Origin: Aureococcus anophagefferens
Lineage: Eukaryota; Sar; Pelagophyceae; Pelagomonadales; Pelagomonadaceae
Direction: 5' to 3'
Assembly (NCBI RefSeq): GCF_000186865.1
Contig: NW_008705564.1
Coordinates: forward strand, 358,474-422,473
Length of the DNA stretch: 64,000 nt
Shown: positions 28,256 through 54,961 of the stretch, one piece after another
Layout of the letters: each line of letters begins with the position of its first letter
How positions within the stretch are numbered: position 1 is the stretch's first letter
Translations under genes and position numbers: made by a program
Notes under the pieces: generated by a model
Seen by the model: the letters and a program-made list of their open reading frames with translations, nothing else
What the model was told of the DNA's origin: nothing
Database searches by the model: none

Positions 28256-30488
28256 CTAGGCGGACCCCGTCACGGCCGCGCGCTTCGGGTGGTCCGGGTC
28301 CCACCAGTAGGGCTCGCGGCTCAGGACGCGGGCCACGGCGCCCCGGAAGGCGTCGACGGGCAGCGACGGGTAGGACGGGTCGAAGGCCTTCTGGTCGTAG
28401 TCGTGGCACCAGCGCGCCGTGAGCCGCCACGCGTCGGCGCTCTCGTCGGACCAGAGCCGGTCGCGCGCGTGCTTGTCCGCCCCAAAGTGGTGGTAGTAGT
28501 AGTAGCCCTGGAAGACCTCGTGGTGGAAGAGGAGCCAGTGCGTGTCGCGGTCGACGTAGGGCGCGAGGAGCGCCGCCGCGGCCTCGCCGTGGCCCTTGGG
28601 CGACAACGACTCCGTGACGTCGTGGAAGAGGCCCGCGACGACCAGGTCGTCGGACTCGCCCGCGCGGAGCGCGCGGCTCGCGACCTGCAGCCCGTGCTCC
28701 AGGAGGTCCACGGGCTGGGCGAGGTACGCGCCCTTTTGCGCGAGCAGCAAGCCGAGCAGCCGCTCGCCGACGTCGATCGCGCCGTAGCGCTCGCCCATGC
28801 GCTCGTAGTCGGCCTTCGGCGCCGTCTCCAAATCCGTGAACGTCGCCGCCGCGCGCCGGAGCCGCTCCCACTTGTACTCGATGCCGTCGCGGTCGAGGTA
28901 GCAGCCCTGGACGAACCGGGCGCCGTCGCCGGGCGCGATCGCGGACCGCGAGTGCAGCAGCCGCTTGTTGTCGAAGATGACGACGTCGCCGCGCCGCAGC
29001 TGCATGCGGATGGTCATGGCCGGCTCGTGGATGAGCTGGGAGAAGCGCCGCTTCGCCGCGTAGAACGTCTCGAGCTCCGCGGGCGGCAGCGGCGGCGCGT
29101 AGCCGCCCGACTTGGCCGAGAAGCGCACGGCCCGGAGGCACCTGGCGCCGCGGCAGCCCGGCGCCTACGTCGGAGATGCGCTCAAAGATGCGGCGCCGCG
29201 CGCCGCGAAGACGACCCTCGAACGTCGCGCGTCGCGAAGGTCGGTCGGACGACGCCCGAACGACGTCGCGCGTCGCGAAGGTGCCGCGCGGCCCCGCGCG
29301 GCCGTCTCGAGCATCTCGAGGTGGGGCACGTCGTGCCAGACCGCCGACGAGCCGTCGCCGCCGTTGTTCTCGAAGCGCACGGCGACGGACGCCTGCGTGG
29401 ATTTCAAATCTTCAATTCGACTTCAATGTGAGAACATGCGACGGCTTCGACGCGAGCTGTTTTGCCGTGCTTCGAGAACGCGACGAGAGCAATCGATTCG
29501 TCCAGAAATCAGCCGAATCGACTTCGATTTAGTTGATTTCCACGCGGACGGACGCGAGCGAGTCGAAGAGCTCCGGCGTCTCCGTCGCCATGCGCTCCGC
29601 GACGGCGAAGCCGTCGGCGAAGTAGTTCATGACCGTGCACCCGTCGCAGGGCGCGGGCACGCCGTGGTCCTGCTCGCAGGAGCACTGCTCGATGGCGTGG
29701 AGCAGCTGGAAGTCGGGCGTCCTGCGAAAAAAAAAGGTCTCGGGACAGAAGACGGCTCCCCGGGACGCGGGGCCGCGGGACGGGTAGCGGTAGGGGTTGT
29801 CCGTGTGCTGGCCGATGGCCTTGGCCGTGTAGGCCAGGTCGAACTTGGCGCCGCTCGCCTGCAGCAGGTCGGGCTCGCTCCGGACGTTGAACTGCTCGCC
29901 CCACTCCGTCGTGCGCAGCGTGCTCAGGTCGGAGGCGAGGGCGCTGCAGACGCCCTCCTCCGTGGGCGCGCCGCGGACGACGGCGACGCCCGCGGACTGG
30001 AGCACGCCGTAGAGCCGCCGCCGCTCGTCGGCGACGTACGCGTCGGACGCCTCCGCCGCGACCTCCGCGAAGGCGAAGAGGGGCGGCCCGCCGAGCGTCG
30101 CGTTCCAGAGCAGCTGCGCCGGCCGCAGGGCCTCGTCGAACTGGACGAAGCCGCTCACGGACGCGCCCATCATCGTCCGCAGGAGCGGCACGGAGAACTC
30201 GGACTCGTGGCCGTCGCGGAACGACACGCGGAGCACCTCGGCGCCCGCCGCGCCCGCCAAAGTCGCGTTCGTCACGACGGGCGGCGCGTACTCGTGCGGG
30301 TTCAGGAGCCGCTGGCGCGTGATCGGGTCCACGGACGTGACGTGCTTGCAACGTTCGCGAAGCCATTCGGCGTGGAGGACGCCGAGGGTCGGGACGGCAA
30401 TGGATCCGTCGCCGAGCAGCTCGACGTCTCGCGAATCCGCCGCGGCCTTGACGGCGGCGGCGAGGGCCAGCGCGACCCAGCAGCGCAT
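28256..30488 (-). CDS. Fused 2OG-Fe dioxygenase (BBOX/TmpA-like) and HD-domain oxygenase (TmpB/PhnZ-like)
   Basis: Exons 30488-29767, 29721-29556, 29392-29298 and 29141-28256 sum to 1869 nt (622 aa). Residues ~20-110 resemble the N-domain of gamma-butyrobetaine dioxygenase (W-L-R-E-R-C). The 2OG core has H-T-D about residue 230 and the distal histidine in F-D-N-K-R-L-L-H (391). Residues ~455-600 form an HD domain of the PhnZ/MIOX type: L-E-H-G-L-Q-V-A, F-H-D (501-502), G-H-G-E (512), H-H-E-V-F (534) and D-Q-K-A-F-D. In bacteria TmpA hydroxylates trimethylammonioethyl-phosphonate and TmpB splits the product to glycine betaine and phosphate; here both modules are in one chain. The leader is hydrophobic (residues 1-17). 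Trimethyllysine or gamma-butyrobetaine hydroxylation is the alternative for the first module. The donor of the third intron (29297) is the least certain junction. Confidence 0.82.
29393..29555 (-). mobile_element. Introner element, family B copy 2 (short form)
   Basis: 163 bp GC-AG intron with target duplication GCGTCCGT (29548-29555, 29385-29392). The ends are CCGCGTGGAAATCAAC and the complement of CTGCGTGGATTTCAAATC. About 45 bp shorter than other B copies: the CCACCAAACTTC segment near one end is missing, while the shared core is kept. Confidence 0.92.
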
Positions 30489-30797
30489 GGTCGCGAGGCG
30501 CTTTTTCGCGGGCTCCTTGTTGGCCCCGACTCGTTGACGACACTCGTTTTTGTGCTTAAACCCAACGGCAACAAGGTCTTCAACCATCCTCGGCGCGGGG
30601 CAGCCTCGGCCGCTGAATCTGGCGATGCAGTAGTGACGTACCCGGTCCGACGTGTTCGTCGGCTCAGCGGCACCATCTCTCAGCCAATCACGACCCGGGT
30701 CTTTCTTTGGCGACGCAGCCGCTGACCAGATTCGAACAAAACGCCAAACACACCGCACCTCCCCTCGCACCGGCCACATCGCACCTCTTCCTCAACC

Positions 30798-33278
30798 ATG
30801 TCCATGAACGCGATCCCCGAGCCCGTGCAGCCCGCCTCCCTCGAGCTGGTCCTCGCGGACTACATCAAGGCCGAGGGCGTCGAGGTCGCGGAGACCTACA
30901 AGCCCATCCTCGCCTACGTGTCCAACCTCGCCAGCAACCAGTGCATCGCCGAGACCTTCCACATGTTCGAGTGGGAGAAGACCTGCCAGGCCTACCTCGA
31001 GCCCATCATGGACGCCGAGAAGGCGGCGGTCGTCACGAAGAAGTTCATGGACGAGTCCGAGAAGCGCGTGCCGAAGCGCGACGTCGTCCTCGACATCCCC
31101 GAGGGCGAGGGCGAGATCCTCTGCAACGTCGAGTTCAAGCTCGCCTACGGCGGCAAGATCTTGCTGAACACGACGCACTTCCACGTGCGCCGCGGCCGCA
31201 TCTACGGTCTGCTCGGCCACAACGGCTGCGGCAAGTCGACGCTCATGCGCGCGATCTCCAGCGGCCAGCTCGCGGGCTTCCCCGGCGCCGAGGAGCTCAT
31301 GAAGCTCCGCGCGTGCTTCGTCGACCACGACATCGACGGCTCCGACGCGAACACGCCGACCATCGACTTCTGCCTCCAGGAGCCCATCCTCGCGCCGCTC
31401 GGCCGCGAGAAGATCCACGCCAAGCTCCTCGAGATGGAGTTCACGGAGGAGCTCATCGAGAAGCCCATCTGCAACCTCTCGGGCGGCTGGAAGATGAAGC
31501 TCGCCCTCGCGCGCGCCGTCCTCCTCAACGCGGACCTCCTCCTCCTCGACGAGCCGACGAACCACCTCGACGTGCAGAAGCAGGCGTGGCTCTGCGACTT
31601 CCTCACGGGCCCGGCGTGCGCGCACGTCACGACGCTCGTCGTGTCGCACGACTCCAAGTTCCTCAACAAGGTGCTCACGGACGTCATCCACTACGAGAAC
31701 ATGCGCCTCAAGCGCTACACGGGCAACCTCGACCAGTTCGTCGAGAAGTGCCCCATGGCCAAGGCCTACTTCTCCATCCACGACACTGAGATGAAGTTCA
31801 CCTTCCCCGTGCCCGGCCCGCTCGAGGGCGTCAAGTCGAAGACGAAGGCCATCATCCAGGCCAAGAACATCTCCTTCACGTACCCCGGCGCGAAGAAGCC
31901 GACGCTCTCGGACGTGTCGTGCCAGCTCTCGCAGGCGTCGCGCGTCGCGTGCATCGGCCCCAACGGCGCGGGCAAGTCCACGCTCATCAAGGCGCTCGTC
32001 GGCGAGACGAAGCCCGACGCGGGCTCCCCGGAGATCTACCGCCACCAGAACTGCCGCGTCGCCTACGTCGCGCAGCACGCGTTCCACCACATCGAGCAGC
32101 ACCTCGAGATGTCGCCCGTCGAGTACATCCAGTGGCGCTTCTCCGGCGGCCTCGACAAGGAGCAGCAGGCCATGGAGGCCGCGCAGATGACCGACGAGGA
32201 GAAGGCCAAGCTCAAGCAGAACTTCGTCGTCTACCTCAAGGAGCTCGCGGCGGAGCTCGACGAGGCGGGCAACGCGACGGGCGAGCGCCAGATCATCTTC
32301 GAAAAGATGGAGCCCCTCAAGGCCGGCCAGAAGCCCCCGCCGACGGACATCCAGAACGGCATCTTCCCCGACTGCGTGCGCCAGATCAAGCAGCTCGTCG
32401 GCCGCCGCTCGCGCCACGGCGACTACGAGTACGAGGTCAAGTGGGCCAAGCAGGACGGCACGTCCATGGAGGACAACAAGAACCTCTACCTACCCAAGGT
32501 CGTCCTCGAGTCCAACGGCTTCTTCAAGCTCATGAAGGCCATCGACGACAAGATCGCCGCCGAGGCCGGCAACGTCAAGCCCCTCACGACGGGCTGCATC
32601 CAGAAGCACCTCGACGACTTCGGCCTCATGGAGGAGTTCGGCACCTACGGCAAGATGAAGAACCTCTCCGGCGGCCAGAAGGTCAAGTGCGTCATCGGCG
32701 CGTCCATGTGGTTCTGCCCCCACCTCGTCATCCTCGACGAGCCGACGAACTACCTCGACCGCGACTCGCTCGGCGCGCTCTCGCGCGCGATCAAGGACTT
32801 CGAGGGCGGCGTGCTCATGATCTCGCACAACGCCGAGTTCTTCGGCGACATCGCGCCCGAGATCTGGGAGATCCCCGGCGACCAGAAGGTCCACATCTCC
32901 GGCGCCGAGTGGATGGAGGCCGTCCGCGCGCGCGAGCTCGCGGAGCAGAAGATGAAGAAGAAGGCCGCGCCGACCCAGGAGGAGGACAAGTTCGACGCCC
33001 TCGGCAACAAGATCGAGACCGAGACCAAGGCCGCGGACGTCGACCGCGACATGATCAAGCTCATGACGAAGAAGCTCAAGGGCCTCAAGGAGCGCCTCAA
33101 GAAGGGCGACGCGTCCGTCGAGGACGAGATGTTCGAGCTCGAGGAGAAGCTCGACGCGGCCAACGCGATGATGAAGAAGGAGAAGGAGGCCGCCAAGGCC
33201 GAGAAGGAGGCCCAGAAGAAGCTCAACAAGAAGGAGAAGGCCCCCGCCGACAAGAAGAAGGCGTCCAAGAAGAAGTAG
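30798..33278 (+). CDS. Translation elongation factor 3-like ABCF protein
   Basis: Intron-free, 826 residues with strongly C-ending codons, which fits high expression. Two ABC cassettes are present: Walker A G-H-N-G-C-G-K-S-T (~139) with L-S-G-G-W (~226) and D-E-P-T-N-H-L-D (~251), then G-P-N-G-A-G-K-S-T (~386) with L-S-G-G-Q-K (~622) and D-E-P-T-N-Y-L-D. A chromodomain-like insert (Y-E-Y-E-V-K-W, ~541) interrupts the second cassette, the hallmark of eEF3 and relatives that release deacylated tRNA from the ribosome. The N-terminal HEAT array of yeast eEF3 is mostly absent. The tail is a Lys-rich coiled coil. There is no membrane part, so it is not a transporter. Confidence 0.92.
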   Translation: MSMNAIPEPVQPASLELVLADYIKAEGVEVAETYKPILAYVSNLASNQCIAETFHMFEWEKTCQAYLEPIMDAEKAAVVTKKFMDESEKRVPKRDVVLDIPEGEGEILCNVEFKLAYGGKILLNTTHFHVRRGRIYGLLGHNGCGKSTLMRAISSGQLAGFPGAEELMKLRACFVDHDIDGSDANTPTIDFCLQEPILAPLGREKIHAKLLEMEFTEELIEKPICNLSGGWKMKLALARAVLLNADLLLLDEPTNHLDVQKQAWLCDFLTGPACAHVTTLVVSHDSKFLNKVLTDVIHYENMRLKRYTGNLDQFVEKCPMAKAYFSIHDTEMKFTFPVPGPLEGVKSKTKAIIQAKNISFTYPGAKKPTLSDVSCQLSQASRVACIGPNGAGKSTLIKALVGETKPDAGSPEIYRHQNCRVAYVAQHAFHHIEQHLEMSPVEYIQWRFSGGLDKEQQAMEAAQMTDEEKAKLKQNFVVYLKELAAELDEAGNATGERQIIFEKMEPLKAGQKPPPTDIQNGIFPDCVRQIKQLVGRRSRHGDYEYEVKWAKQDGTSMEDNKNLYLPKVVLESNGFFKLMKAIDDKIAAEAGNVKPLTTGCIQKHLDDFGLMEEFGTYGKMKNLSGGQKVKCVIGASMWFCPHLVILDEPTNYLDRDSLGALSRAIKDFEGGVLMISHNAEFFGDIAPEIWEIPGDQKVHISGAEWMEAVRARELAEQKMKKKAAPTQEEDKFDALGNKIETETKAADVDRDMIKLMTKKLKGLKERLKKGDASVEDEMFELEEKLDAANAMMKKEKEAAKAEKEAQKKLNKKEKAPADKKKASKKK

Positions 33279-33515
33279 ATCTTCTTCGCGCTCGCTCGCG
33301 GGACCGCGCGCCCTTCGGGTCTTCAGTCGCCGGTCCGCTCCTCCTCCCCTTGTGTCATAAAAGAAAATTCCAATGTACACTCTTGCCCAAGTCGAAGCGG
33401 CGTTTACATATTCCGCCCCGGGCGGGATATGTTATCGTAGGACGCTGCGGCGCGGCGACGTAGGCCCATATTGCCTTCAAGTTGAAAAGGAAGATTTTAA
33501 AATTGGGTGGCTGCA
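33279..33515. other. Intergenic with a 25 bp hairpin
   Basis: Between eEF3-like and the PHD gene. Around 33404-33430 the sequence CATATTCCGCCC is followed by its near-complement GGGCGGGATATG, giving a ~12 bp stem with a 1-2 base loop. It could act in 3' end formation or as a protein site. Confidence 0.5.
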
Positions 33516-35491
33516 ATGGAGCCGATCGCCGCTCATGTTCTGCCGGCGTCGCTCTTCGTCGAGGAGCCGCCGGCGGCAGCGGTCGTCGTCGCGGCGCCGC
33601 CGGCGCCACCGATCGTAGCGCCGCCGCCGCGACCGATGGTAGCGCCGCCGCGACCGATGCTGGGGTACCTGCTCCCGCCGTCGATCGCAGGGGCGCCACC
33701 GGTCTTCGTCCCAAACCCGGTGCCCTTCGTCGACGAGCCGGAACCGATCGCGCGCGCGGCGACGAGCGCCGCCGCGGCGCCGCCGATCGCGGCGCCGGCG
33801 CCGGCCGTCGCGGCGCCGGCGCCGGCCGTCGCGGCGGCGAGCGGCGCCGCGGCGCCGGAGACGGAGGAGGCGCCCGCCGTCGCCGCCGCGCTGCCGCCGA
33901 CGGAAGAGGAGGCGCCGCCCGTCGCCGCCGCGCCGCCGGAGACGGAGGAGGAGGCGCCGCCGCCGCCCGAGGACCTCGCGGCGACGGCCGCGCCGCCGGC
34001 GGCGGCGGCGGAGGAGGAGCCGCTGCCGCCCGAGGACGCGGCGTGGGCGGGGTGGACGGGCTGCGTCTGCGGCGGCGGCTACTACGGCGAGATGGTCGCG
34101 TGCGACGGCGGCTGCGACAACTGGTTCCACTTTGGCTGCGTCGGCCTCACGCGGCTGCCGCGGGGCGAGTACATCTGCGACGGCTGCAAGGCCGCGCCGA
34201 AGCAGAAGAAGCGGCCCGCGGAGGCCGCGGCCGCGTCGGCGCCCAAGAAGCCGAAGGAGCGGCCCGAGGCGACGAAGACGGAGCGGCGCGACCGCGCGGA
34301 CCTCGAGGCCCTGGTCGAACGCGCGCGCCCCCTGCGCTTCGACGGCGCCGGCGCGCTGCTCGAGGCCGGCGACGGCGAGGCGTCGCGGCCCTGCCGCGGC
34401 GCGGGCCGCCTCGACCTCGCGCCGGACGTCTTCGAGCCGCTCCAGCGGCTCCACGGCGCCGTCGTCGGCGCGCTCCGGCGGGGCAAGCTGCTGCAGAGCT
34501 GGGAGGGCAAGGGCAAGGACGTGCGGAGCCGGGGCTTCGCGTTCCTGCCGGCGAGCCTCGCCAAGTGGGGCCGCGAGCGCCTCGAGCGCGCCGGCCTGAG
34601 CTTCCACGCCGCGGAGAAGTCGGGACCGGACGCGGCGGACGACGAGCGGGCGAACTGGAAGTCCTGCTTCACGCTCCTGGAGCGCGACGTCGACGACGCC
34701 GCGCGCGACGCGCTGCGGCGGCTCGTCCCGCTCGTGCAGGCCGTCGTCGACGCCAAGTACCGCAAGTTCGTGACGCTCGAGAATTTGGTCGCGATCAGGG
34801 CAGGACAAGAGAGCGAAATTCCCAACTTCAAAGCCTCATATCTCGGCCGTTTTCCACTCGTTTCGGCTGATTTTTGGACGAGCGATCATCTCTCGGAACG
34901 GTCTCGAAGCGTGGATGCTTTTTCCGGAACGCGCGCGCGCGGAACACTCACGTTGAAGCGACGTTGAATCACCCTTGTCCTGCCCAGGTCGCGATCCAGC
35001 CGAACCTGCACAACGGCGCGGCGCACCTGCCGCCGCACCTCGACTTCCCGCTCCACGACGGCTTCGGCGTCGTCATCGTCACGCTCCAGGTCGCCGGGCC
35101 GCCGGCGGCCGTGGCCCTCGTCCGCGGCGACAAGCACGCGGACTTCGAAAGCAACGGCGCCCCCGAGGCGCGCGAGCGCTGCTGGACCCTGCGGCTCCAG
35201 ACCGGCGACGCCTACGTGCTCAGCGAGGACGCGCGCAACTTCTGCGACCACGGCGTGCTCTGCCTGCCGCCGGACGGCCGCCGCAGCGCGCGCGGGCCCG
35301 CGGCCGCGCCGGAGTCGCGCGAGTCGCTGAACCTGCGCTTCGGGCTCCACTCGCAGCACAAGGGGGCCCAGCTCTCGGCCTACCGCGAAGTGTACCACCA
35401 GTTCGACCTGGACTACAAGCCGCCCAAGGCGCCGAAGGCGCCGAAGCCGCGGACCGCGCCGTCGCGCGCGTCGTCGCGCCTCGCCAAGTGA
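33516..35491 (+). CDS. PHD finger plus 2OG-Fe(II) dioxygenase-like protein
   Basis: Exons 33516-34787 and 34988-35491 give 591 aa. The first ~180 residues are Pro/Ala/Glu-rich and disordered. A PHD finger follows (~183-224: C-V-C...C-D-G-G-C-D-N-W-F-H-F-G-C...C-D-G-C), a histone-tail reader. The rest is an Asp/Arg-rich helical linker and a double-stranded beta-helix domain with candidate Fe ligands H441-x-D443 and a histidine near 512 (F-C-D-H-G-V), like AlkB-type or prolyl-hydroxylase-type enzymes. PHD plus 2OG oxygenase suggests chromatin-linked oxidation. The substrate is unknown. A family A introner lies just before the Fe-binding motif. Confidence 0.82.
34788..34987 (+). mobile_element. 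Introner element, family A copy 3, in PHD-2OG gene
   Basis: 200 bp GT-AG intron with exact target duplication GTCGCGAT (34788-34795, 34988-34995). The ends are CAGGGCAGGACAAGAG and CTTGTCCTGCCCAG. Internal orientation is R (AGCGAAATTCCC next to the donor), opposite to copies 1, 2 and 5. Excision restores E-N-L-V-A-I-Q. Confidence 0.96.
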
Positions 35492-35796
35492 CCCTTTTGC
35501 CCCGCTGCGACGACGCCAAGGGCGAGTGACCATTTTGCCCCGCTTCGACGACGTGCGCGCTGACCATTTTGCCCCGCTTCTCCCAAAAATCCACCCTTCT
35601 TGCTCACGCTCCTTTCTCTCAAAACTTCTCGCTCAAGCACCCACTTCTTGGCAAGTTCTTGCTCAAGCCCCCCGCCACATCCGCGCGCGAGTCCCGCCTC
35701 GCCCCAGAGCAACGTCCCTGGGGCCCCGGGAACTGGCGCCCAGTAACACAAAACAGCCGCTAGCGCTAGGCGGCCCGGAGTACGACAAAACGGCCG
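35489..35796. repeat. Intergenic with three tandem TTTTGCCCCGCT repeats and GCTAGC repeats
   Basis: Three spaced copies of GTGACCATTTTGCCCCGCTTC-like sequence (35489-35515, 35527-35553, 35561-35581) start at the PHD gene's stop. Further on, AAAACAGCCGCTAGCGC and AAAACGGCCGCTAGCGC form a second pair (about 35751-35804). No gene is seen. Confidence 0.65.
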
Positions 35797-36894
35797 CTAG
35801 CGCCGCGCGCCGCGCGGCCCGTCGACGCGGCGCTTGGACGTGGTCCAGGCGCTCCGGTCGCGGACCTTGTGCGTGTCGTCGTCGGAGTCGTAGTCGAGGA
35901 CCTCGTCGTGCTGGTCCGGGAAGGGCAGCGTCGTGCCGAGGACGTCGTAGCAGAAGTGGAAGCGCGCGAGCTTGTCCGCGTCGCCGAAGACCTCGTAGGC
36001 GTCCTTGGCCGCGCGGAAGCGCGCGGCCGCGGCCTCGACGGCCCCCGCGTCCGTGACGTTGCGCTGGCGCAGCTTGTCCGGGTGGAGCTCGAGCGCGAGC
36101 TTCTTGTACTCCGCCTTGGCCGCGGCGCCGTCGACGCGGTCCGACGCGCTGGCGACGGAGAGGCCCAGCGCTCGGCAGTGGCGCGAGCCGTTGACGCGCC
36201 GCAGCCGCACGTCGTCCCACGCCGGCCCCGCGGGCCGCGACGCGCGGTGCCGCGCGACGCGCGGCCGCGGCGCGGCGCCGCGGGCGCCCGACCGCTCGCG
36301 GAGGATCGCGGCGCAGTCGTCGCGGAAGCTCTTCCGGTACTCGGCGCGGCCCTCGGCGGCCGCGAGCGCGCGGCGCGCGTCGTCCTGGCCCAGGATGGTC
36401 TTGCCCAAAATGAGCCGCGCCTTGGCCCGCCGGAGTAGTATGGTCGGATTCTGCTTCGCGAGCGCCAGAGCCTTGACGCAGTAGGTCTCCGTCGCGTGGG
36501 CGTGGTCCTGCTCCTCGCGGCCGCCTTTATAGGCCTGCATGAGCGTGCAGGCCGCGGCGTTGCCGAGCTCGTGGCCCGCCCGCTCGGCGTCGCCCGCGGC
36601 CTCGTGCCGCCGGCTCAGCTCGACGAACGCCTCGCACGCGCGCGCGTAGTACTGCGCGTTGTAGGCGTCCTGGGCGCGGACCTTCAGGTCCTCGTCGGAC
36701 TCGGCGGCCGGGAGGGGCGCCGCGGCTTTCTTCCGGGGGTTGTCGTAGATGGGCGTCCCGGCGCTGCCGACTTCGTCGCGGGGGCGCTTCCGCGGCGGCG
36801 GCGGGTCCTCGGCGGTCAGGTCGATGAGCTCGATCTCTTCCACATCACTGTCGCTGACGAGGTCGACGACGACCGGCTCCGCCGGGGTCGTCAT
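35797..36894 (-). CDS. TPR-like J-domain protein with two SUMO-interaction-type motifs
   Basis: 365 residues. The acidic N-terminus has V-V-V-D-L-V-S-D-S-D (~8-17) and E-L-I-D-L-T-A-E-D (~22-30), two textbook SUMO-interacting motifs. A Lys/Arg nuclear-signal-like stretch follows (~35-60), then TPR-like helices (~70-190) and a J domain (~245-315) with the H-P-D motif in L-E-L-H-P-D-K. J domains stimulate Hsp70 ATPase. The SIM pair suggests recruitment to sumoylated clients in the nucleus (inference). Divergent from the epimerase gene. Confidence 0.85.
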   Translation of the reverse strand: MTTPAEPVVVDLVSDSDVEEIELIDLTAEDPPPPRKRPRDEVGSAGTPIYDNPRKKAAAPLPAAESDEDLKVRAQDAYNAQYYARACEAFVELSRRHEAAGDAERAGHELGNAAACTLMQAYKGGREEQDHAHATETYCVKALALAKQNPTILLRRAKARLILGKTILGQDDARRALAAAEGRAEYRKSFRDDCAAILRERSGARGAAPRPRVARHRASRPAGPAWDDVRLRRVNGSRHCRALGLSVASASDRVDGAAAKAEYKKLALELHPDKLRQRNVTDAGAVEAAAARFRAAKDAYEVFGDADKLARFHFCYDVLGTTLPFPDQHDEVLDYDSDDDTHKVRDRSAWTTSKRRVDGPRGARR

Positions 36895-41073: not shown

Positions 41074-41106
<33 letters not shown>

Positions 41107-41555: not shown

Positions 41556-44500
41556 ATGTACGAGGACGAGGTGCCGGAGACGCCCGAGTCCATGGAGCTC
41601 GAGGGGCGCGACGACGACGGGCGGCCGGAGGTGCTCATCCTGGAGGACCACCACCAGCCGGGGATCCTCGAGGCGGCGCTGCGCTGCGACCACGGGTCGC
41701 CCGTGCCCTTCGACCCGCTGGCCCCGAGCAAGCCCGAGTGGTCCTTCGCCGGCGGCGGGCGGCCCGGGTCCATGGACGAGCGGCCGCGGCCCAAGTCCTC
41801 CGGCGGCGGCAGGCTGAAGAAGAAGCCGGCCGACTTCCCGTGCCGCGGCGACGACCCGCCGCAGCGGCCGAAGACGTCGAGCGGCCCGCGGCCGAAGACG
41901 CCGCGCGCGAACCGGCCGCCGAGCGGCGGCGCCTTCCGCCAGCCGTCGCCGGCGCGGCGGCCCGCGACGGCCGACGGCGCCGTCGCGGTGCGCGCGGCGC
42001 CGCGGCCGGGCTCCGCGCGCGCCGAGGACGACTCGCCCTTCCTCGCGGGGCCCGCGGAGCTCGTGCTGAGCGGCGTCGAGGAGCTGCTGCGCGCCTTCCA
42101 CGAGGCGGGCCTCGAGAAGCGGGAGATCGCGGCGCCGGCCGACGTCGTCCGGCGGTTCCTGGCCGTGCACTACGGCGGCGAGCGGGGCGGCACAAGAGAG
42201 CGAAATGCCCAACTTCAAAGGCTCCTTTCTCGGCCGTTTTCCCCTCGTTTCGGCTGATTTTTGGACGAGCGGTCATCTCTCGGAACGGTCTCGAAGCGCG
42301 GATGCTTTACTACGGAACGCGCGCGCGCGGCACATTCACGTTGAAGCGACGTTGAATCTCTCTTGTGCCGCCCAGGCGGCGAGCGCGCCGCGCACGCGGT
42401 CCGCGCGACGATGGAGAAGTCCATGAAGCGCAGCGAGGTGCTGAGCTACCGCGCGGAGCTGTTTACCTTATTGTACGGCCTGGACCGCGGCGACGGCGTC
42501 GTCTACCCGTCCTACGGCGCGGCGTGCCTCCGGTGCCTCGACGGCGCGACGCGCGCGTACCTCGTCGAGGAGCGGCGGCGCTTCCCGGAGATGTCGCGGC
42601 CGCCGGGCCGCGAGAACCGGCCGCCGGGCGCCAAGGTCGCGCTGCTGTCCCTGCCGAAGCCGCGGGCCGACGACGCGCCGGGCACCGTGACGGAGCCGTG
42701 CCACGGGTCCGTCGTCGCGGAGTTGCTGCGGTCGTCGAACCTCGTGCACGTCGACGCGCTGTTGACGGCGTGCCGGCGGAGCGTCTGGCGCGGGTCGACG
42801 CTGGGCCGCGACCGGCCCCAGACGGCGGGGGGGACGCCGCGCCAGGCCGCCGGCGGCGACGCCGCGCCCCACGAGCAGGCGCTCCTGGACCTGCCGCAGC
42901 GGACGTCGCCGCGCATCCGCACGCCGCGGAGCGGCTGGAGCCCGCGGCTCCACCCGCCGGCCGTCGGCGACCACTGGGTCGACGCGGACCGCGCGCTCCT
43001 CGAGGTCGTGAACTGTGTGCAAATCAACCAGTGAGCTGGGACGTCGGGGCCAAACTTGAGAATTCTCTAGCTCGGTCAAATCAAAGTCGATTCGGCTGAT
43101 TTTTGGACGGATCGATCGCTCTCGTCGAGTTCTCGGAGCCCAGCCGAAGAGCTTGCGTCAAAACATTCGAATACGCTCACATTGAAGTCGGGTTGAAGAT
43201 TTGATGTGCACACAGGTCGTGAGGCTCGTCGCGTCCGAGCGGGACCACGCGGCGCGCGCGGAGCGGGAGCGGGCCGCGGCGGACGCGATCCAGAAGCGGT
43301 CCAAGGCCTACCTCGAGCGGAACCGAAGATTGAGGCGCCACGCCGACGCCTGGAGCTTGCTCTTCAAGGCGCGCCAGAAGGCCGCGAAGACGTCGGGCTA
43401 CTCGCTGCGCCTCGACGTGCCCGCGCTGTCCGACGTGCTCCGCCGGGGCCTCGGCAGCGACCGCCGCGCGCCCGAGGGCGCGGATCTCGTCGTGCTCTAC
43501 CAGGACTACCTCGCGAAGCACGCGGCGCTGACGAACCAGAAGCTGACGCGGAGCCACGAGACGCTGAAGCGGCAGGAGGCCGCGGCGACGGCCCAGGCCC
43601 ACTTCTCCGGCCTCGCGGGGCACGCGCTCACGAAGACGAAGAGCGGCGTGTCGCGCGCGACGAAGGAGATCCTGCGCTGGCAGCCCTGGCTCGCGGACCG
43701 CCAGCACGAGAGCCTGGAGGTGAAGGCTCTGGTCATGGTGCTCTGGGACCACGGCCTCTCGTGCTCCGAGGACGTCGTCGGCGGCGCGCTCGACGGCCGG
43801 GGCTCCCTCTCGAAGCACGCGCGCAACTCGGCCCTGCTCACGTCGAACCTCAAGCGCAAGTCGCAGGCCGCGGCCGACGGCTTCAACAAGCGGAGCGCGG
43901 GCATCGAGGACGCGATGCTCGACGGCGTCTCCGCGGCCATCCACGCGCAGGGCCGCGAGACCGTCGCGTCGCGCGCGTCCGCGCGCTACGCGGACGCGTC
44001 CCAGCGCCAAACCCAGCGGCCGGGCGACGGGAGTTCCCGTGGGTCGCGCGTCTTCGACTACCACAAGGCGGCCTCGAAGATCCGCCAGCAGACGGAGCTC
44101 AACTACGGCTTCCACAGCGGCACGTCGGCCCACGATTTAGGATCAAAAATCCACGCGGCGACGCTCGCGAACATCGCCGGCGTCGACGACGGCGGCGACC
44201 GCCGCGAGTCCGTCGCGCGGCATCGCGCGGACGCGCGGAAGCACCACCAGGAACATTTGGCGGAGGAGGCGGACGCGGACGACGACGACGAGGCCTTCGA
44301 CGACGACGACGACGACGAACAGCGACCGTCGACGCCGGCGCAGATCGCCGAGGCGCGCAAACAACACCAGGCGGAGCTCGCCCGCCCGAGGACGCGCGAG
44401 TCGCCGTTCTACGTCGCCGAGCGCCACGTCGAGGGCAGCGACGCGCAGGCCCACATGGAAAAGACGCGGCGGCCCACGTCGGGCACGCCGGCCGCCGCGG

Positions 44501-45369: not shown

Positions 45370-45459
45370 AAAGAGTGGCAACTTGAAGTTCAAGTTGCCG
45401 GCACAGAGCAGTCGACTCCGGGAGAGCCGTCGCAGTGCACGTCGACGCCTCGCGTCGCG

Positions 45460-46260: not shown

Positions 46261-46282
46261 GCCGCGACGCGCCGTTTCACCA

Positions 46283-46334: not shown

Positions 46335-46347
46335 GACGGCCGCCTTC

Positions 46348-49345
46348 TTAATACGCCGCGGTTTTGATCGCCGCGTTCGTCGGGTCGTAGGGCGCCTTCG
46401 CGTGGAACGTCGCCGGCCGTCGGCGCCCGCGGTCGCCGACGGACCAGGCGCCCGCCTTGAGGAAGTCCAGGCTCACGGCGCCGCCGCCGAGCTCCCGGGA
46501 CGCGGCCGCGTGGACGTAGCCGTAGGCGAGCGTGCGGCGGAGCGCGTGGCTGTAGGCGACGGACCTCACTAAACCGACGCACTCGTCGCCGCGCCAGATG
46601 GTCTCGGACCCGTGGAGCGGCGCGTCCGCCGGCGGCGCGGCGTCGTAGGGCGGCGCCGCGTCGTCGGCGTCGACGCTCAGGCAGACGATGCGCTTGCGGG
46701 CGAAGGCGCCGCGCCGCTTCGCGGCCTCGAGCGCGGGACGCCCCAGAAAGTCGCCGTCCGACTTGAGGCGCCGCGCGACCGTGAAGCCGATGCCCGCCTC
46801 GAAGGGCGTCTCCGCGTTGCTCAGGTCCGCGTGCCAGTGGCGGTAGCCCTTGTCCGCCGAGAGGCTGTCCATCGCGCGGTACCCGGCGTCTAAAACGGGC
46901 GCGCCCGACGCCGCCGCGACCTCCGACCCGCGGCGCTTCACGGCGGCGTACACGGCGTCGCAGCCCGCCCGGGGCACGTGGAGCTCGAAGCCGAGCTCGC
47001 CGACGAACGTGAGGCGCAGGAGCTTGCAGCCCGCGACGCCGGCGATCGTCGCGTCCGTTTTCGCCGTCGAAAAGGGGAACGTCGCCAGGTCGTCCAAAAG
47101 CCCGCCGACCAAAGGCGCCAGCACTTGGCGGGACCGCGGGCCCTGGACCGAGAGGACGCCAAAGTCGTCGGAGACGTCGTCGACGCGGACGTCGAAGGCC
47201 GCCGCGCGCGCCTCGATCCACGCCAAATCCTTCGTCTGCGTCGCGCCGCCCGAGACGACGTAGAAGGCGGTGTCCGACAGCTTGGTCATGGTCAGGTCCG
47301 CCTCGACGCCGCCGTTGGCGTCGCAGAGCACCGTGTAGGTGACGTCGCCGGCGGCCTTGTCCGGGTCGCCCGCGCTCATAAACTTGGCCGCGGCCGCCGC
47401 GCCGGGCCCCTCGAGCAGGAACTTGCCAAAGTAGGACTGGTCGAAGAGCGCCGCGCCCTCGCGCGCCGCGCGGCACTCCGCGGCGACGCGCGGGAACGAC
47501 GCGCCCCAGCCGAACGTGAGCTCGCCGTCGACGGCGTCGCGGTACGCGTCGTCCGCGCGGCTCGGTACCCGGCCGTCCGCCTCGGGCCCGCCGCCGACCC
47601 AGTCCAGACGCCAGGCCGAGCCTTCGTCGTCGTAGGCGCCGTAGTAGTCGTAGGCCCGCGGCGCGCCGGGCTTGGCGTCGGGCTCGAACCACCCGGGCCG
47701 CTCCATGCCGTGGCGCGACTGGAAGACGCAGCCCGCGGCCAACAGGCCCTGCTCGAAGGGCGACGGCCGGAGGCCCCGGCCCGCGAGGTGCTCGTCGTGG
47801 GGGAAGACGACCGCATAGGTCTTCGCGTAGGACTCGTGCGTGCTCCGCTTCACCCAGGCGCCGTCCGAGGAGCAGTCGCCGTGGAACCGGCGCGCGTCGG
47901 CCCCGAAGAGGTCGCGCGTCGCCGCGCCCGTCGCGACCCAGTGGGCCAGCTCCTCGCCCATGCCGCCGGCGAGCATGATGCCCATGGAGTTGAAGCCGCA
48001 GCAGAGCCAGAGGCCCCGGGGCCCGCCCGGCGCCTGTGTGGAAATCAACCACTGGTTTGGGGGGTCCCCACCAAACTTCAGAACTCTCTATCTCAATCAA
48101 ATCGAAGTCGATTCGGCTGATTTTTGGACGGATCGATTGCTCTGGTCCAGTTCTCGAAGCACAGCGAAAGAGTCTGGTCCAAATCGTTCGATTACGCGCT
48201 CATTGAAGTCGGTTTGAAGATTTGATTTCCACACAGCCCGGCGCGGGGCCGACGAGCGGCTTGTGGTCCGGCGTGAACGACTCGGGCCCGCAGACCGTCG
48301 ACTTGATCCCCGCGTCCTCGACGCTCGGGCAGCGGCGCATGTGGTTCTGGATGTTCTCGTCGAACGTCTCCCAGTCGAGGTCGAACAGACCGAACGAGAA
48401 GTGCTTCTCGTCGTCCGCCGACATGCGCCAGAACTCCGGGTTCGTCTCGTAGCCGCCCAACGCGAGGGCGTCGCCCTGCGCCTTGAAATAGATGGACAGG
48501 TCGTGGTCCCGCACGTTCGGCAGGCCGCCGTGCATGCCCGGCACCGCCTCCGTGACGACGTACGCGTGCTTCATGGCCAATAACGGCAGCGGGTCCGACG
48601 GCCGGTCGACGAGGTTCTGCACCGCGGGCGCCCAGGCGCCGCCGCAGTTCACGACGACGGGCGCGTCGACGCGCCGGCCGTCGTCGAGCACGACGCCGGC
48701 GACCGCGTCGCCGTCGCACGCGACGCGCGCGACGCGCGCGCCTTCGGAGAAGACCGCGCCGTGCCTCGCCGTCGCGACGCGCCGGTAGCCGTCGACGACG
48801 TTGAAGGCGTCGATGGTGCCGTCGCCCGGCGAGTAGAGCGCGCCGGCGACGTCGTCGACCCTCAGCAGCGGGTGCGCGCGCCGCGCCTCGCCCCCGTCGA
48901 GCATGCGCGCGTCGATCCCGTAAAAGGTCCCGAGCTCGACGAGCCGCTCGTACTCGGCGACGCGCTCCGCGTTCGTCGCGATGAAGAGGCCGCCGTTCTC
49001 CGTCCAGATGCTGCCGGCGCGCGCCCCCGCGGGCTCGCCCTCGAGCTCCGCGACGGCGACCTCGAGCGCCTTGCACCGCGTCCGCGTGACGTCCTGCAGC
49101 TCGACGTCGACGTAGTTCGGCCGCAGCCGCCAGAGCATGCCCGCCGTGTGCCACGTCGTGCCCGCCGTCAGCGCGTTCTGCTCCAGGAGCACGGTCCGGA
49201 AGCCCTGCGCCGCGAGGTGGTAGGCGCAGGACGCGCCGACGGACCCGCCGCCGATGATGACGGCGTCGGCGCGGTCCGGGAGCGGTTTCGACGCAAAGCA
49301 GCGGTGTTGGCCTCTTATGAGCGGAGCGATGCGGGCGGCGAGCAT
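46348..49345 (-). CDS. SARDH: Sarcosine dehydrogenase, mitochondrial
   Basis: Exons 49345-48245 and 48033-46348 sum to 2787 nt (928 aa), the usual SARDH length. A short Arg/Ala leader (M-L-A-A-R-I-A-P-L-I-R) suggests mitochondria. The FAD Rossmann motif I-I-G-G-G-S-V-G-A-S lies at ~30. T-T-W-H-T-A-G-M-L-W-R-L-R-P-N carries the His that holds FAD covalently in this family. G-D-G-T-I-D is typical of sarcosine dehydrogenase. The C-terminal half is the folate-binding GCV_T/aminomethyltransferase domain. It oxidises sarcosine to glycine and passes the methyl carbon to tetrahydrofolate. Divergent from the DMGDH-Rieske gene. A family B introner splits G-P-A-P-G-G. Confidence 0.93.
48034..48244 (-). 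mobile_element. Introner element, family B copy 4, in SARDH
   Basis: 211 bp GC-AG intron with exact target duplication GCGCCGGG (48026-48033 and 48237-48244). Near-perfect terminal inverted repeats CTGTGTGGAAATCAA. Best-preserved B copy together with copy 5. Confidence 0.96.
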
Positions 49346-50705
49346 GGTGGTTTGCTTTCTCGGTGGCCAACCGCGGGCTCGACGCCGCCGCCGCGGTCCA
49401 GCCACCTTCGAAGGAATTGCCACAAGAAAGTTTAGCCTGCCCACGCCACTGGAAAATCGACGATTTTGGGCACCTCGACCGCGGACCCCCTGCTTGTCTC
49501 ATCGTGATGGACGTTTATCTGGGGCTCCGGAACCGCAGCCGATCATGCTAGGTCATCGATTGGCACAAGTTATGGCCGAAAATGTCGGTTTTTGGAGATT
49601 TCCGGCGTGCGCGAGCGCCACGTACGCGTGTCCACCCGACGGCGGCGGGTGCCACGCACGTCCACGCTAGCCCAGGGAGTCCGCCCGGTCCCCAGGCGGT
49701 CGCGCGGGGCGCCGAAGCGAGTATATACGGCCGTATACGACGCGTTTGTACTGGTTTAGTACGGCTAGGGTGTACTGGCGAGGCACCAACGGCAGGAAAA
49801 CAGGCGCGCAGAGCACCGTTTCGATGGCCGAGCGTCTTCTGGAGTCGAGACAAGATGTCTCGACGCAACGCCAGCGCCAGTCCGCGTTCGTGGGCGCGTC
49901 GTCGCTGTAGACCGTGTTGGTGTCGTTTTCGAGGCGCTGGCAGGAGGCGCCCAAGCTGTAGCTGTCGAGTGCCGCGTTCACCTGACGCGCGGGCCAGCGG
50001 AGCCCCAGTGATCGGTCGTGAGAGGGCATCGGAACCGCTCTGGACGTCCAGGGGCGTCGCGGCGCCGCACACTGGCTCGTTTTGACCGCCGCCAATCGAT
50101 GAGAATCGAGGAACCGAGGCCGTAGGGTGGTCCGACGGTGGCGAATGCCGGGTTTCGCGAGACATGTTCTTCGTAGCAACCCTCTCCGCACTTCCTCCGG
50201 AGAAACCCGGCATGCGAGGTCCGGAACACGTCCAACACGCGCCAGCCGTCGCGAGAGAACGCTCCGACGAGGCCGTTGCGTTTTCGACGACGCCCGGACC
50301 GTCTCGCGCGCGGCGTCTTCGCAGTGGTCTGGCCACGGACGGTCCCGAGGCACATGCGGGAGCGCGCGGCCCCACTCCCCGGGGGCGCCGCGCACGCGCT
50401 GTCGCGGCGGCCGCTCTCCGAGCCGAGCGCCTCAGCTCCCAAAGGGCAAGGTCGACCGGGTGGGCAGGGTAAAAAGTGCATGTTGTGAGACACAGCAAAC
50501 ATAAATTTCGCGAACAATCACAGCAGTGCTAGCGGGTCGAGGCCAGCCAGTGCGCCCGTCACGGGATTCGATCTGAGGCGCCGCCTGCGGGTCTCGGAGG
50601 ACCAGCTCTCGAGCCCGTCGACGCGCGTCGCCAGCTCCGTCGACTCCGCGCGCCGAGCGAGCGCGTGACTCCCAAGTTTTCCGCGAAGAAAACCTTCTCC
50701 CGACG
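49346..50705. other. Long shared upstream region of the two methyl-catabolism genes (~1.36 kb)
   Basis: It separates the divergent SARDH and DMGDH-Rieske starts. It contains a perfect 14 bp palindrome TATACGGCCGTATA near 49725-49738 and an inverted pair ATGCCGGGTTTC / GAAACCCGGCAT around 50143-50155 and 50202-50215 that could form a hairpin. Several overlapping open frames (up to ~316 codons, minus strand) have no recognisable protein character. A decayed gene or repeat cannot be excluded. Confidence 0.45.
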
Positions 50706-53700
50706 ATGGCCGCGCGGCGCGTCGTCGTCGTCGGCGGCGGCGTCGCCGGCGCGTCGATCACGCGCGAGCTCGCCAAGGCCGGCTGCGAGGTGACGCTCCT
50801 CGAGCGGTCGAGCCAGCTCTGCTCCGGCGCGACGTGGCACGCCGCGGGCCTCGTGACGCGGTTCGGGGGGTCGTCGAAGCTCAAGAAGCTCCACGTGCGG
50901 TCCATGGAGCTGCTCGAGGACATGCACGAGACGCACGACGTCGGCCTCCACCTCACGGGGTCCATCCGCCTCGTGGCCAAGGGCGACGACGCGCGCGCGC
51001 TCGAGGCGCGGCGCCACTTGGAGCTCGCGAAACTCTACGACGTCGAGGAGCACCCGACGCGGCTCCTGGCCCCCGACGAGTGCGGCGCCCTGCACCCCCT
51101 GCTCGACGCGTCGACGCTCGAGCTCGGGCTCTACACGCCCCACGACGGCGACATCTGCCCGAACCTCCTCACGTACGCCTTGGCGAAGGAAGCGAAGGCC
51201 GCGGGCGCTCGAATCGTCTTCGAGGCCGAGGTGGCGTCGCTCACGCGGGTGGCGCCCCGCGCCTTCGACGTCGCGACCAAAGACGGCGCGCGCTACGAGG
51301 CCGACGCCGTCGTCAACTGCTGCGGGCTCTGGGCGCAGACGTTGAGCGCGGAGCTCGGCCTGGAGCAGACGCACCCGGCCTTTGTGATCGAGCACCACTA
51401 CGCCGCGCGCGGGCCGCGCCCCTTTCTATGAACGCCACCCGTCACCCGATGTCTCGCAGGTCACGGAGCCCATCGCCGCGCTGAGGGAGCTCCGCGCGGC
51501 CGGGAGCCGCGCGCCGGTGCTCCGGGACCTCAAGAGCTCCTGCTACCTGCGCCAGGAGCAGGACGGCATCCTCGTCGGGCCCTACGAGCACCTGCCCGCG
51601 GGCGCCGTCCACGACGAGTGGGGCCGCGGCGGCCCGCCGAAGTCGTGGGCCTGGGACCTCTTCCCGGACGACGTCGACCGCCTCGAGGACGTGCTGATCT
51701 CGGCCATCGACACGGTGCCGGCGCTGGGCGACGTCGGCTTCTCGAGCGTCGTCAACGGCCCGACGATCTGGGCGCCGGACGCGCTGCCGCGCTGCGGCCG
51801 CACGGAGGTCCCGGGCTACTTCGACTTCAACACGCTCACGTACGGCATCGCGCACTCCATGCCCCTGGCCGAGTACCTCAAGGCCGTCATGCTCGACGGC
51901 GAGCAGCCCTACGATTTGAGCAACGAGTGCGACCCCCTGCGCTACGGGCCCTGGGCGACGGACGGCTACGCCAAAGCGAAGGTCGTCGAGACCTACAGCG
52001 CGAACAACGCCGTCGGCTGGCCCTTCGAGAACCGCGACGCGGGCCGGGGCGACGTGGCGCGGTCGGGCGCCGCGGAGGCGTTGGCGGCGGCCCAGGCGCG
52101 GCGCGGCGCGCTCATGACGTCGTCGGACAAGACGGGCGTCAAACTCGCGCTCGCGTTCGTCGGCGAGGCCTCGGAGCGAAAAGAGCGCCGCTTCGCCGAC
52201 TTCTCCTGGGCGCCCCACGCCGCCGCGGAGGCGACCCACGTCCGCCAGAGCGCGGGCATCTCCTGCGCCGTCGGCTTCTCCAAGCTCCGCGTGACGTCGG
52301 CCGACGACTCCGCGATCGAGGTGTTGCGGTCCGCGCTCACGAACGTCGCGCCCAAGACGCCGGGCCAGTGCCGCCTGACCTACGCCCTGGCCCCCAAGTC
52401 CGGCCGCGTCGTCGCCGAGTTCACGGTCGTCAACGCGTTTGGCACGGGGCTCGGCGGCGGCGGCGGCGACTCGGGCGACTTTTACGTCGTCGGAAGCCGC
52501 GACGCCGCGAAGCACGACGCGGAGTGGCTCCGGGGCCGGGCCCGCGCGCTGCTCGGCGAGGACCAGACGGCCGTCACCGTCGCGGACGCGAGCGACGCGC
52601 TGGAGATCCTGCTGCTCGCGGGCCCGCGGTCCAAGGACGTCCTGCTCGCCGCCGTCGACGACGCGAAAGCCGTCGAGGACCTGGGCTTTTTGAAGTTTTC
52701 CACGGCGCCGATCCGGGTGGCCAGCGTCCCCTGCACCGTCGCGCGCGTTTCTTTTACGGGCGAGGCGGGCTACGAGCTCCACTGCGCCGCGGACGACGCC
52801 GCGGCGTTGTACGACGCGTTGCTGGACGCGGACGCGTCGAAACGGCTCGGCCTCGCGCCCTTCGGATCCCACGCGACGAACTCGCTGCGCTTGGAGAAGG
52901 GCTTCAAGGTCAAGGGCGATTTAGATTACGCCCTGGGCGGCGAGGCGGGCATCGACGCGTTCTGCCGGACGTCGGCCAAGGGCGCGTACGTCGGCCGCGG
53001 CGCCGCGGCGTTCGCGTTCGACGCGCCCGGGTCGCCGCTCCGGACGCGGTCCGCGGCGCTCTTCGCCGTGGAAACGGCGCCGGGCTACGAGTGGAGCGTG
53101 CCCGGCGACGCGCCCGTCGTCGACGGCGCGGGGAACGTCGTGGGCGTCACGACGACGTCGGCCTACGGCACCGAGGCGCGCGCGACGCTCGCGAGCGGCT
53201 TCCTCTTCGACGAGGCGGCGCGCGGCGCCCCGCTCTTCGTCGAGTGCTACGGCGAGACGTTCCCCGCGGCGGTGCTCGCGGCGCCGCCGGCGCCCGTGCG
53301 CGGCCGCGACGCGCCGCCCGTGGCCTTCGCGGCGCCGAGCGTCCAAAAAACGCCCGAGTACGCGCTCGGCGGCGTCCGCGCGCAGTCGAGCCGGGCGGGC
53401 AACCACCTCCGCCCCCTCGACGACGAGTCCGCGCCGGCGCTCGAGATCGTGGCCAAGAGCGGGAAACCCTGGGAGACGGACGAGTATTTCGCGCTCACGC
53501 GTCTCCCCGTCGAGGCCGCGCACACGTTCGGCCGCGACATGTACGTCTCCGAGGCCATCTTCGCCTCGGAGGCCAAGCTCCTCTTCGACCGGGAGTGGGT
53601 CTGCTCCGGCGTGGCGCCCGACGTCGCGAAGCACGGCATGGTCGCGCCGCTCTGGGCGCCGGGCGCGCCCGTCTCAGTGTGGATTCCACCCACTGGTTTG

Positions 53701-54961
53701 GGGGGTCCCCACCAAACTTCAGAACTCTCTATCTCGGTCACATCGAAGTCGATTCGGCTGATTTTTGGACGAATCGATTGCTCTCGTCGAGATCTCGAAG
53801 CACAGCGAAAGAGTCTGGTCCAAACCGTTCGATTACGCGCACATTGAAGTCGGGTTGAAGGTTTGGAATCCACACAGGCCCGTCTTCGCGGCGAACCACA
53901 AGGGCCGCGTCCGCGCGTACTACAACGTCTGCCGCCACCGGGGCGCGAAGCTCGTCCGCGAGCCCGCCTCGAAGAAGAACGTCGTGACGTGCCCCTACCA
54001 CAAGTGGGGCTACGCGTTGGACGGGCGCCTCGTGGGCACGCCGTGCTGGGACGACGGCGCGACGTCCTGCGGGTCCGACGACAAGCAGGTCCCCAAGGCC
54101 CTGCGGGACAAGTTCACGACGGACCACGTCGAGGGCTTCGACAAGTCGCAGTACGGTTTGTTCCCCGTCGCCGGCGTCGAGACCTTCGGCCCGCTGCTCT
54201 TCACGAAGCGCGACGCGGACGCGGGCCCGTCGTTCGACGACCACCTCGGCGACCTCCGGGAGCAGCTGCGCCACTATCCGGTCGACGAGCTCGTCGTGGG
54301 CCGGCGCGCGACGGTGCGCGACATCCCCTGCAACTGGAAGATCCTCGCGGAGAACTTCATGGAGTACTACCATTTGCCGGCGGTGCACCCGCTCCTGTGC
54401 ACGGTGTCCGGCGTCGACGAGCACCTGCGCACGCAGGGCCGGGGCAAGTGCGTCGCCTTCGCGACGGCGCCTTTGACGGACGGCGGCACGTGCGTCGACC
54501 CGTCGGTGGCGCCGCCCATGCCGGGCCTGGAGGACACGCCGGACGCGACGGCGGCGCGCCACGTGCTCGTCTACCCCAACGTCTTCATGTCCTGGTACCC
54601 GAACCACGTCATGCTCTGCGTCATCGAGCCCGTGTCCGCGGGCGTGTCGCACGAGCACTTCCACGTCCTCGTCCACCCGAAGATCTACGACGACCTCGGC
54701 GACCGCGCGGACGAGACCATCGACGACTTCTTCGCGTGGCACGTCCGCGTGAACAACGAGGACATGGACATCTGCCAGGCCGTCCAGGAGGGCGTCTCCG
54801 TGCCGTCCTACGAGGGCGGCCGCTTCTCCTTCCGCTTCGAGGAGACGATCCACCGCTACCAGAACATGGTCGCCGACTCGCTCACGGGCAACAACGCCGT
54901 CGTCCCGCCCGCGGACCCGGACTTCGTCGCCGCCGACGACCTCGCGCGCCCCGCCGCCTGA
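50706..54961 (+). CDS. Fusion: dimethylglycine dehydrogenase (FAD + GCV_T) and Rieske oxygenase (glycine-betaine/choline type)
   Basis: Exons 50706-51404, 51460-53666 and 53878-54961 sum to 3990 nt (1329 aa). The N-terminal FAD domain has V-V-G-G-G-V-A-G-A-S (~6), G-A-T-W-H-A-A-G-L with the flavin-linking His (~42) and the DMGDH signature V-L-R-D-L-K-S-S-C-Y-L-R-Q-E-Q-D-G. A GCV_T folate domain follows to ~835. From ~900 a Rieske oxygenase alpha subunit begins: [2Fe-2S] ligands C987-x-H989 and C1007-x-x-H1010, and mononuclear Fe motif N-W-K-I-L-A-E-N-F-M-E-Y-Y-H-L-P-A-V-H (~1121-1139). Such Rieske enzymes demethylate glycine betaine (GbcA) or oxidise choline (CMO). The chain could take betaine to sarcosine. 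No organelle leader is visible. The 55 bp first intron is GC-AG. Confidence 0.88.
53667..53877 (+). mobile_element. Introner element, family B copy 5, in the Rieske module
   Basis: 211 bp GC-AG intron with exact target duplication GCCCGTCT (53667-53674, 53878-53885). Ends CAGTGTGGATTCCA and the complement of CTGTGTGGATTCCA. It shares the GGGGGGTCCCCACCAAACTTC segment with copy 4. Excision restores A-P-V-F-A-A-N-H. Confidence 0.96.

Follow-up and report, generated by a model that had tools for sequence, protein, structure and literature searches.

The class of HD-domain oxygenases has three named members, MIOX, PhnZ and TmpB, in the excerpted text of a 2020 review (PMC8177086), and the same excerpt places the Glu of the YxxE motif of PhnZ and TmpB within hydrogen-bonding distance of the amino group of the substrate. 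TmpB acts together with TmpA, a 2-oxoglutarate (2OG) oxygenase, turning 2-trimethylammonioethylphosphonate (M3AEP) into glycine betaine and phosphate. In eukaryotic phytoplankton, phosphonate catabolism has been called "enigmatic" (PMC9765203, in its abstract). In the present study, we analysed 64,000 nucleotides of Aureococcus anophagefferens DNA (contig NW_008705564.1; the whole stretch is called the window), for which the original prediction had proposed a route from a choline-like phosphonate to glycine through a fusion of TmpA-like and TmpB-like modules, a dimethylglycine dehydrogenase (DMGDH)-Rieske fusion and a sarcosine dehydrogenase (SARDH). We find that the first of these genes encodes a true fusion, in a eukaryote, of two oxygenases for successive steps, and that it represents a new subtype. 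We put at about one half the probability that this protein is a bifunctional enzyme cleaving the C-P bond of a (trimethyl)ammonium-type phosphonate, as a bacterial gene pair united in one chain. The genes and modules concerned are the following.

28256..30488, minus strand: 2OG oxygenase-HD oxygenase fusion gene, 4 exons, 617 amino acids, from a spliced model and homologues.
30488-29782, 29721-29556, 29392-29298 and 29141-28256, minus strand: exons of the fusion gene, the donor of exon 3 being the least certain.
28898..29735, minus strand: span of two TauD (2OG) matches, with the HxD motif in QHTDNPYR and the distal His in LLHSR.
28259..28846, minus strand: HD oxygenase module, in one exon, with six ligands H..HD..H..H..D.
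46348..49345, minus strand: SARDH, 2 exons (49345-48245, 48033-46348), 928 amino acids.
50706..54961, plus strand: DMGDH-Rieske oxygenase fusion, 3 exons (50706-51401, 51460-53666, 53878-54961), 1328 amino acids.

The three proteins were spliced by hand from the window sequence, and the models reproduce the spans first assigned to them. In the fusion, the Pfam models TauD and GBBH-like_N score over their cut-offs and HD scores 21.6 bits, marginally under its cut-off of 22. SARDH carries DAO, FAO_M, GCV_T and GCV_T_C, and the DMGDH-Rieske protein carries the same four followed by Rieske and Ring_hydroxyl_A. Other organisms have the same architectures, which are therefore no artefacts of the models. 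For the fusion, the Aureococcus protein already deposited (P0005, "gamma-butyrobetaine dioxygenase", 478 amino acids) shares long identical stretches with ours by eye, and its HD half is missing the H..HD segment; the hand-spliced model of 617 amino acids is the better one.

The 2OG half lies on the side of TmpA. Against the NCBIfam models it scored 224.1 bits with TmpA (NF049936, equivalog cut-off 400), 185.3 with gamma-butyrobetaine dioxygenase (BBOX; TIGR02409, cut-off 414.75) and 123.8 with trimethyllysine hydroxylase (TMLH; TIGR02410, cut-off 268.3), remaining below all three cut-offs and giving no sign of the TMLH grouping that would have spoken against the proposed kinship. An identity as BBOX was rejected after lower scores than TmpA in three separate comparisons, and an identity as TMLH on the NCBIfam comparison alone. 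The nearest solved structure is that of TmpA, the 2-His-1-carboxylate ligands are present, and H, D and the distal H are invariant columns in the alignment of fusions. In quick trees, with SH-aLRT values as the sole support, the algal 2OG clade (99) and a clade containing five bacterial 2OG proteins encoded next to HD genes (87) form one group (97), with TmpA outside.

The HD half is more divergent. Searched as a single sequence, it matched TmpB (0.003) and PhnZ (0.005) weakly; as a family profile, it matched PhnZ (3.4e-14) and TmpB (1.6e-12), followed by MIOX (0.15). Since 2OG matches swamped the Foldseek and VIA searches when the entire fusion was the query, the HD half was folded alone (pLDDT 93.7) and compared with 329 aligned chains; among the best 50 entries listed, PhnZ (17.7) and TmpB (16.9) ranked ahead of MIOX (12.3 and 11.2) and an exopolyphosphatase (8.4). 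Both the profile and the predicted fold thus place the module nearest to PhnZ and TmpB, as had been proposed, and on them we rejected an identity as phosphohydrolase. All six diiron ligands are kept by 48 of 48 sequences.

The fusion family is conserved in pelagophytes and diatoms. From 8000 scored candidates, 144 relatives were found; among the best 120, which are those listed, 49 contain both halves as judged by length and coverage, the HD-half motifs being located in 47 and 48 of them. The named ones with both halves are those of Chrysophaeum (60% identity), Aureoumbra (56%), Nitzschia inconspicua (44%) and a Bacillariaceae metagenome-assembled genome (41%). In an alignment of 46 fusions, the 2OG iron ligands and most of the HD motif occupy invariant or near-invariant columns. 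Many members are labelled gamma-butyrobetaine dioxygenase or predicted HD phosphohydrolase. Relatives with dinoflagellate names (Effrenium, Symbiodinium) have the length and domains of the 2OG half alone, and P0053, P0059 and further proteins with a 2OG half only, which in several cases come from dinoflagellates and in some have presequence-like starts, nest among the fusions in the 2OG tree; it is possible that their HD half was lost or separated. A strongly hydrophobic segment within the first 40 residues was observed in 38 of 44 fusions of at least 600 amino acids, in 16 of 111 SARDH proteins and in 0 of 31 bacterial 2OG relatives, by a crude test that the start of the DMGDH-Rieske protein (a Rossmann strand) also passes. 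Judged from sequence, the start of the fusion resembles a signal peptide, and the protein is probably active extracellularly or within the secretory pathway.

In bacteria, the HD half finds its nearest relatives in HD proteins that stand alone (47 loci, 34-45% identity), and this divergent clade was found in 82 of 289 alphaproteobacterial genomes sampled (E<=1e-20). Around these genes, 80 regions were examined, mostly with about 8-10 kb on each side and some ending at contig ends (such as L113 and L132). TmpA-like 2OG matches occur in 7 of the 80, never more than 1.5 kb from the HD gene; PhyH 2OG matches in 6, at a distance of up to 140 bp in five of these, one of which (L033/L058) served to build the PhyH model; Rieske matches in 8; and strong MttB or sarcosine-oxidase-beta matches in 6 (L057 by construction), with weak sarcosine-oxidase matches also at L133, L150 and L155. 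At L057, the HD gene stands among genes for MttB, a corrinoid protein, a methyltransferase, RACo, serine dehydratase, sarcosine oxidase and a GbcA-like Rieske protein far under its cut-off, a set that reads as a betaine-catabolic operon; some of these genes were identified in L014, which is the same stretch. At L059 the order is BBOX/TmpA-like, VanY, HD and Rieske. The frequent position of the clade beside TmpA-like or PhyH 2OG genes, betaine-type Rieske genes and betaine or sarcosine operons makes the algal fusion look like a gene pair on a single chain.

Two bacterial systems are separated by the TmpA score, namely TmpA with TmpB and a TmpA-like gene with a divergent HD gene. Matches of at least 400 bits adjoin TmpB in 17 of 18 cases. 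Between 280 and 400 bits, 8 of 27 adjoin a divergent HD gene (including a fragmentary HD match in G295, one on the opposite strand in G162 and one 1.2 kb away in G079) and 3 of 27 adjoin TmpB; below 280 bits, the figures are 0 of 26 and 1 of 26. The genome G277 has both systems: a canonical TmpA adjoins a TmpB-like gene, and a TmpA-like gene, a divergent HD gene and a PstS-family gene stand in a row (L128:6890-9891). Bacterial 2OG-HD fusions were also considered and rejected, the long frames of L087 and L090 looking by eye like non-coding read-through upstream of the HD gene. Two tandem divergent HD genes lie beside Rieske and PhyH genes at L133 and L143, in an uncharacterised cluster.

A search of the Aureococcus genome itself gave one further HD match, which shares an open frame with a TauD match.

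G000:C2, about 87.3-89.1 kb (L004:894-2706): second 2OG-HD fusion, 583 amino acids, with a hydrophobic N-terminus.

Its HD half keeps the residues of PhnZ and TmpB (the Glu, HVEAK, QGGPM and DDLGK). It scored 256.8 bits with TmpA and, over most of the HD domain, 134.5 with Phn-HD and 102.8 with TmpB, failing the equivalog cut-offs; against structures in the PDB, the values were 6.9e-56 for TmpA, 2e-20 for PhnZ and 8e-20 for TmpB. On these residues and scores, the second fusion is the nearer candidate for an enzyme of M3AEP or AEP.

Herein, we propose a scheme for the fusion of the window that builds on its architecture, kinship, ligand conservation and predicted fold and on the bacterial gene pairing, all obtained by computation, and in which we infer the substrate, the C-P cleavage, the secretion and the coupling to betaine genes. 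The TmpA-like Fe(II)/2OG half would hydroxylate the carbon next to phosphorus in an alkylphosphonate that carries an ammonium or quaternary-ammonium group, such as M3AEP or a closely related compound. The diiron HD oxygenase at the C-terminus would then cut the C-P bond, releasing phosphate and a betaine-type carboxylic acid, probably at the secretory or extracellular site named above. The protein would be the single-chain form of the bacterial pair of a TmpA-like and a divergent HD gene, distinct from TmpA and TmpB. Should the product be glycine betaine, it could be taken on to glycine by DMGDH-Rieske and SARDH, which are conserved separately from the fusion; a complete phosphonate-to-glycine pathway is plausible.

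Several observations weigh against this proposal. The Glu of YxxE is found in 0 of 47 fusions (Gln in 23, Ala in 23, Met in 1), the Tyr being kept in 15 of 47, and the Lys of the TmpB motif HVAAK is Gln in 48 of 49; the HD half therefore looks like a member of the oxygenase class whose substrate pocket departs from that of TmpB. It scored 23-26 bits with TmpB (NF049941, cut-off 300) and PhnZ (TIGR03276, cut-off 214.6). In the HD tree, the algal halves form a deep clade of their own (100) and are not nested among HD proteins paired with TmpA; TmpA itself sits on a long branch in the 2OG tree, where 2 of 7 bacterial 2OG neighbours (L059, L115) fall outside the partner clade. Because the placements in the two trees differ, there is no single obvious donor pair for both halves. 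The more canonical second fusion makes M3AEP itself less likely as the substrate of the fusion in the window. Among the bacteria, 55 of 80 HD regions have no match to any of the six other families scanned, PstS lies beside the HD gene in just 1 of 80 (by a single-sequence query), and a TmpA-like gene at E<=1e-20 is missing from 4 of 11 genomes examined, two of these (G008, G022) having betaine-type neighbours and two (G129, G231) PhyH and Rieske neighbours. The upstream sequences of 13 bacterial 2OG genes that adjoin an HD gene or lie close to one gave no convincing Pho box, the best candidates being equalled by 31, 38 and 45 of 300 shuffles and L113 offering only 113 upstream bases. At L016 and about 20 other loci, mostly of Acidimicrobiaceae, the divergent HD gene is fixed between lytB and a glycosyltransferase gene, a housekeeping-like setting that a phosphonate function leaves unexplained. 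The claim of a TmpA+TmpB fusion thus stands for the sides on which the two halves fall and fails for membership of the two families; we reword it to a protein that works like TmpA+TmpB, as a divergent subtype of unproven substrate.

The altered pocket would also suit a phosphorus-free reaction, in which the 2OG half hydroxylates a quaternary amine resembling butyrobetaine or carnitine and the HD half cuts a C-C bond as MIOX does, yielding a betaine. MIOX ranks third by fold, and the bacterial clade keeps company with Rieske (8/80) and strong MttB or sarcosine-oxidase-beta matches (6/80) more often than with PstS (1/80). However, TmpA outscores BBOX for the 2OG half and for five bacterial HD-adjacent relatives, a basic residue is common to the 2OG half and TmpA and is not in BBOX, and the HD profile is closer to PhnZ and TmpB than to MIOX; we consider such a reaction rather unlikely. 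It would surprise us more if the 2OG half were an ordinary carnitine-pathway enzyme (BBOX or TMLH) joined to a hydrolase or a degenerate regulatory domain, as the public name of P0005, the marginal Pfam score of the HD half and the many relatives beside lytB and glycosyltransferase genes might suggest, given the TmpA-side scores and the oxygenase fold described above.

Compatible with the C-P-cleaving enzyme that we prefer, and slightly favoured by us, is the view that the fusion lies near SARDH and DMGDH-Rieske by chance and has an unrelated role. In Chrysophaeum, the fusion (CTAYLR_007579) is on a 131-kb contig and DMGDH-Rieske (CTAYLR_000328) on a 740-kb contig, so that conservation of a three-gene cluster is unsupported; the NCBI Aureococcus set likewise lists the two on contigs of 843634 and 323006 bases. 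Of ten open frames that were scanned, nine lie in the interval from the fusion to SARDH and the tenth is downstream; those with Pfam matches, all in the interval, encode ABC_tran (ABCF-like), GDP-mannose dehydratase/epimerase and DnaJ proteins, which are unrelated, as the original prediction had noted. By eye, the N-termini are secretory-like in the fusion, mitochondrial-presequence-like in SARDH and without clear signal in DMGDH-Rieske. On the other side, the same HD clade stands in bacteria beside Rieske, DMGDH and sarcosine oxidase genes, and two of the four FAO_M loci and the only Ring_hydroxyl_A match (in DMGDH-Rieske) found in the 49-Mb genome lie here. The remaining two genes probably are a conserved pelagophyte pair: for two environmental relatives, SARDH and DMGDH-Rieske are listed with longest contigs of equal length (P0132/P0123, 21395; P0133/P0127, 42006), which we read as linkage from the lengths, and no fusion relative among the 120 listed has a contig of either length. 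The proposed pathway cluster therefore reduces to this probable pair, with the fusion nearby in Aureococcus.

The activities of both proteins are predicted from domain sets, and the set of the DMGDH part (all over cut-off) is common to SARDH. Most named near relatives of SARDH bear that name and some are called dimethylglycine dehydrogenase; one protein of 928 amino acids is 98% identical to our model. For DMGDH-Rieske, 8 of 10 matches carry GCV_T, Rieske and Ring_hydroxyl_A, and the Aureococcus protein P0121 is 91% identical over the searched part. The Rieske half matched CntA (PDB) and GbcA (NCBIfam) best, with 113.3 bits for GbcA (NF058607) against a cut-off of 670.

Introner-like introns were also observed in the three genes.

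29393..29555, minus strand: fusion gene intron with an introner-like copy and the 9-bp direct repeat GCGTCCGTC at both splice sites.
48034..48244, minus strand: introner-like SARDH intron, by blastn.
53667..53877, plus strand: DMGDH-Rieske intron with an introner-like copy that blastn lists in minus orientation.

Five of the six introns of the gene models start with GC, including those with introner-like copies; a related repeat is present in three, one per gene, each of which has short direct repeats at its two splice sites. The window has five such stretches (26788-26980, 29393-29536, 43013-43215, 48034-48244 and 53677-53880), and the SARDH intron is 77-91% identical to the other four by blastn.

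If these fusions cleave C-P bonds, a testable enzyme family can be named in bloom-forming algae and diatoms, and the divergent HD clade, given its spread among the alphaproteobacterial genomes, would widen the class of MIOX, PhnZ and TmpB. A broader picture is speculative and, in our estimate, doubtful: pelagophytes and diatoms would carry secreted or lumenal C-P-cleaving fusions, Aureococcus two kinds of them, one more canonical and TmpA-TmpB-like, the other widespread; the HD half of this second kind, that of the window, would found a new clade with its own phosphonate substrate and with unfused pairs in bacteria; and together with DMGDH-Rieske and SARDH, a betaine-type phosphonate would be mined fully for phosphate, methyl groups and glycine. 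In the literature searched, which consisted of titles and the starts of abstracts with most subscription journals outside, we found no account of the algal fusion family, the second Aureococcus type or the bacterial pair counterpart.

Compared with known systems, the algal protein shares with TmpA and TmpB of Leisingera caerulea (PDB 6NPB-6NPD, 6NPA) both domains of the two-step chemistry, both folds, the 2OG iron ligands, the HD diiron ligands and the aromatic cage positions. It differs in being one chain with a signal-peptide-like start, in scoring 224 of 400 and 23 of 300 bits, in lacking the YxxE Glu and in having HHEVFQ where TmpB has HVAAK. The second Aureococcus fusion is likewise a TmpA-like and HD protein with a hydrophobic N-terminus, whereas its HD half keeps the PhnZ/TmpB residues. 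The Rieske and catalytic domains agree with GbcA and CntA, and the domain sets with DMGDH and SARDH, whereas the algal Rieske part is fused behind DMGDH and reaches 113 of 670 bits for GbcA. The bacterial pairs (L113, L120, L124, L128 and L132) share the DLAY and S-x-K/R-type 2OG residues (N-x-K in L113) and the HD clade, and differ in being two genes with an HD subclade unlike the algal one. PhoF, compared by description alone from the excerpted text of a review (PMC10574752), is also a eukaryotic single chain, in which a 2OG hydroxylase is joined to an HD oxygenase to cleave C-P bonds, and therefore the algal fusion is not the first eukaryotic one; by that account, PhoF is a fungal fusion of PhnY and PhnZ acting on AEP and APP, and in this it differs from the algal protein.

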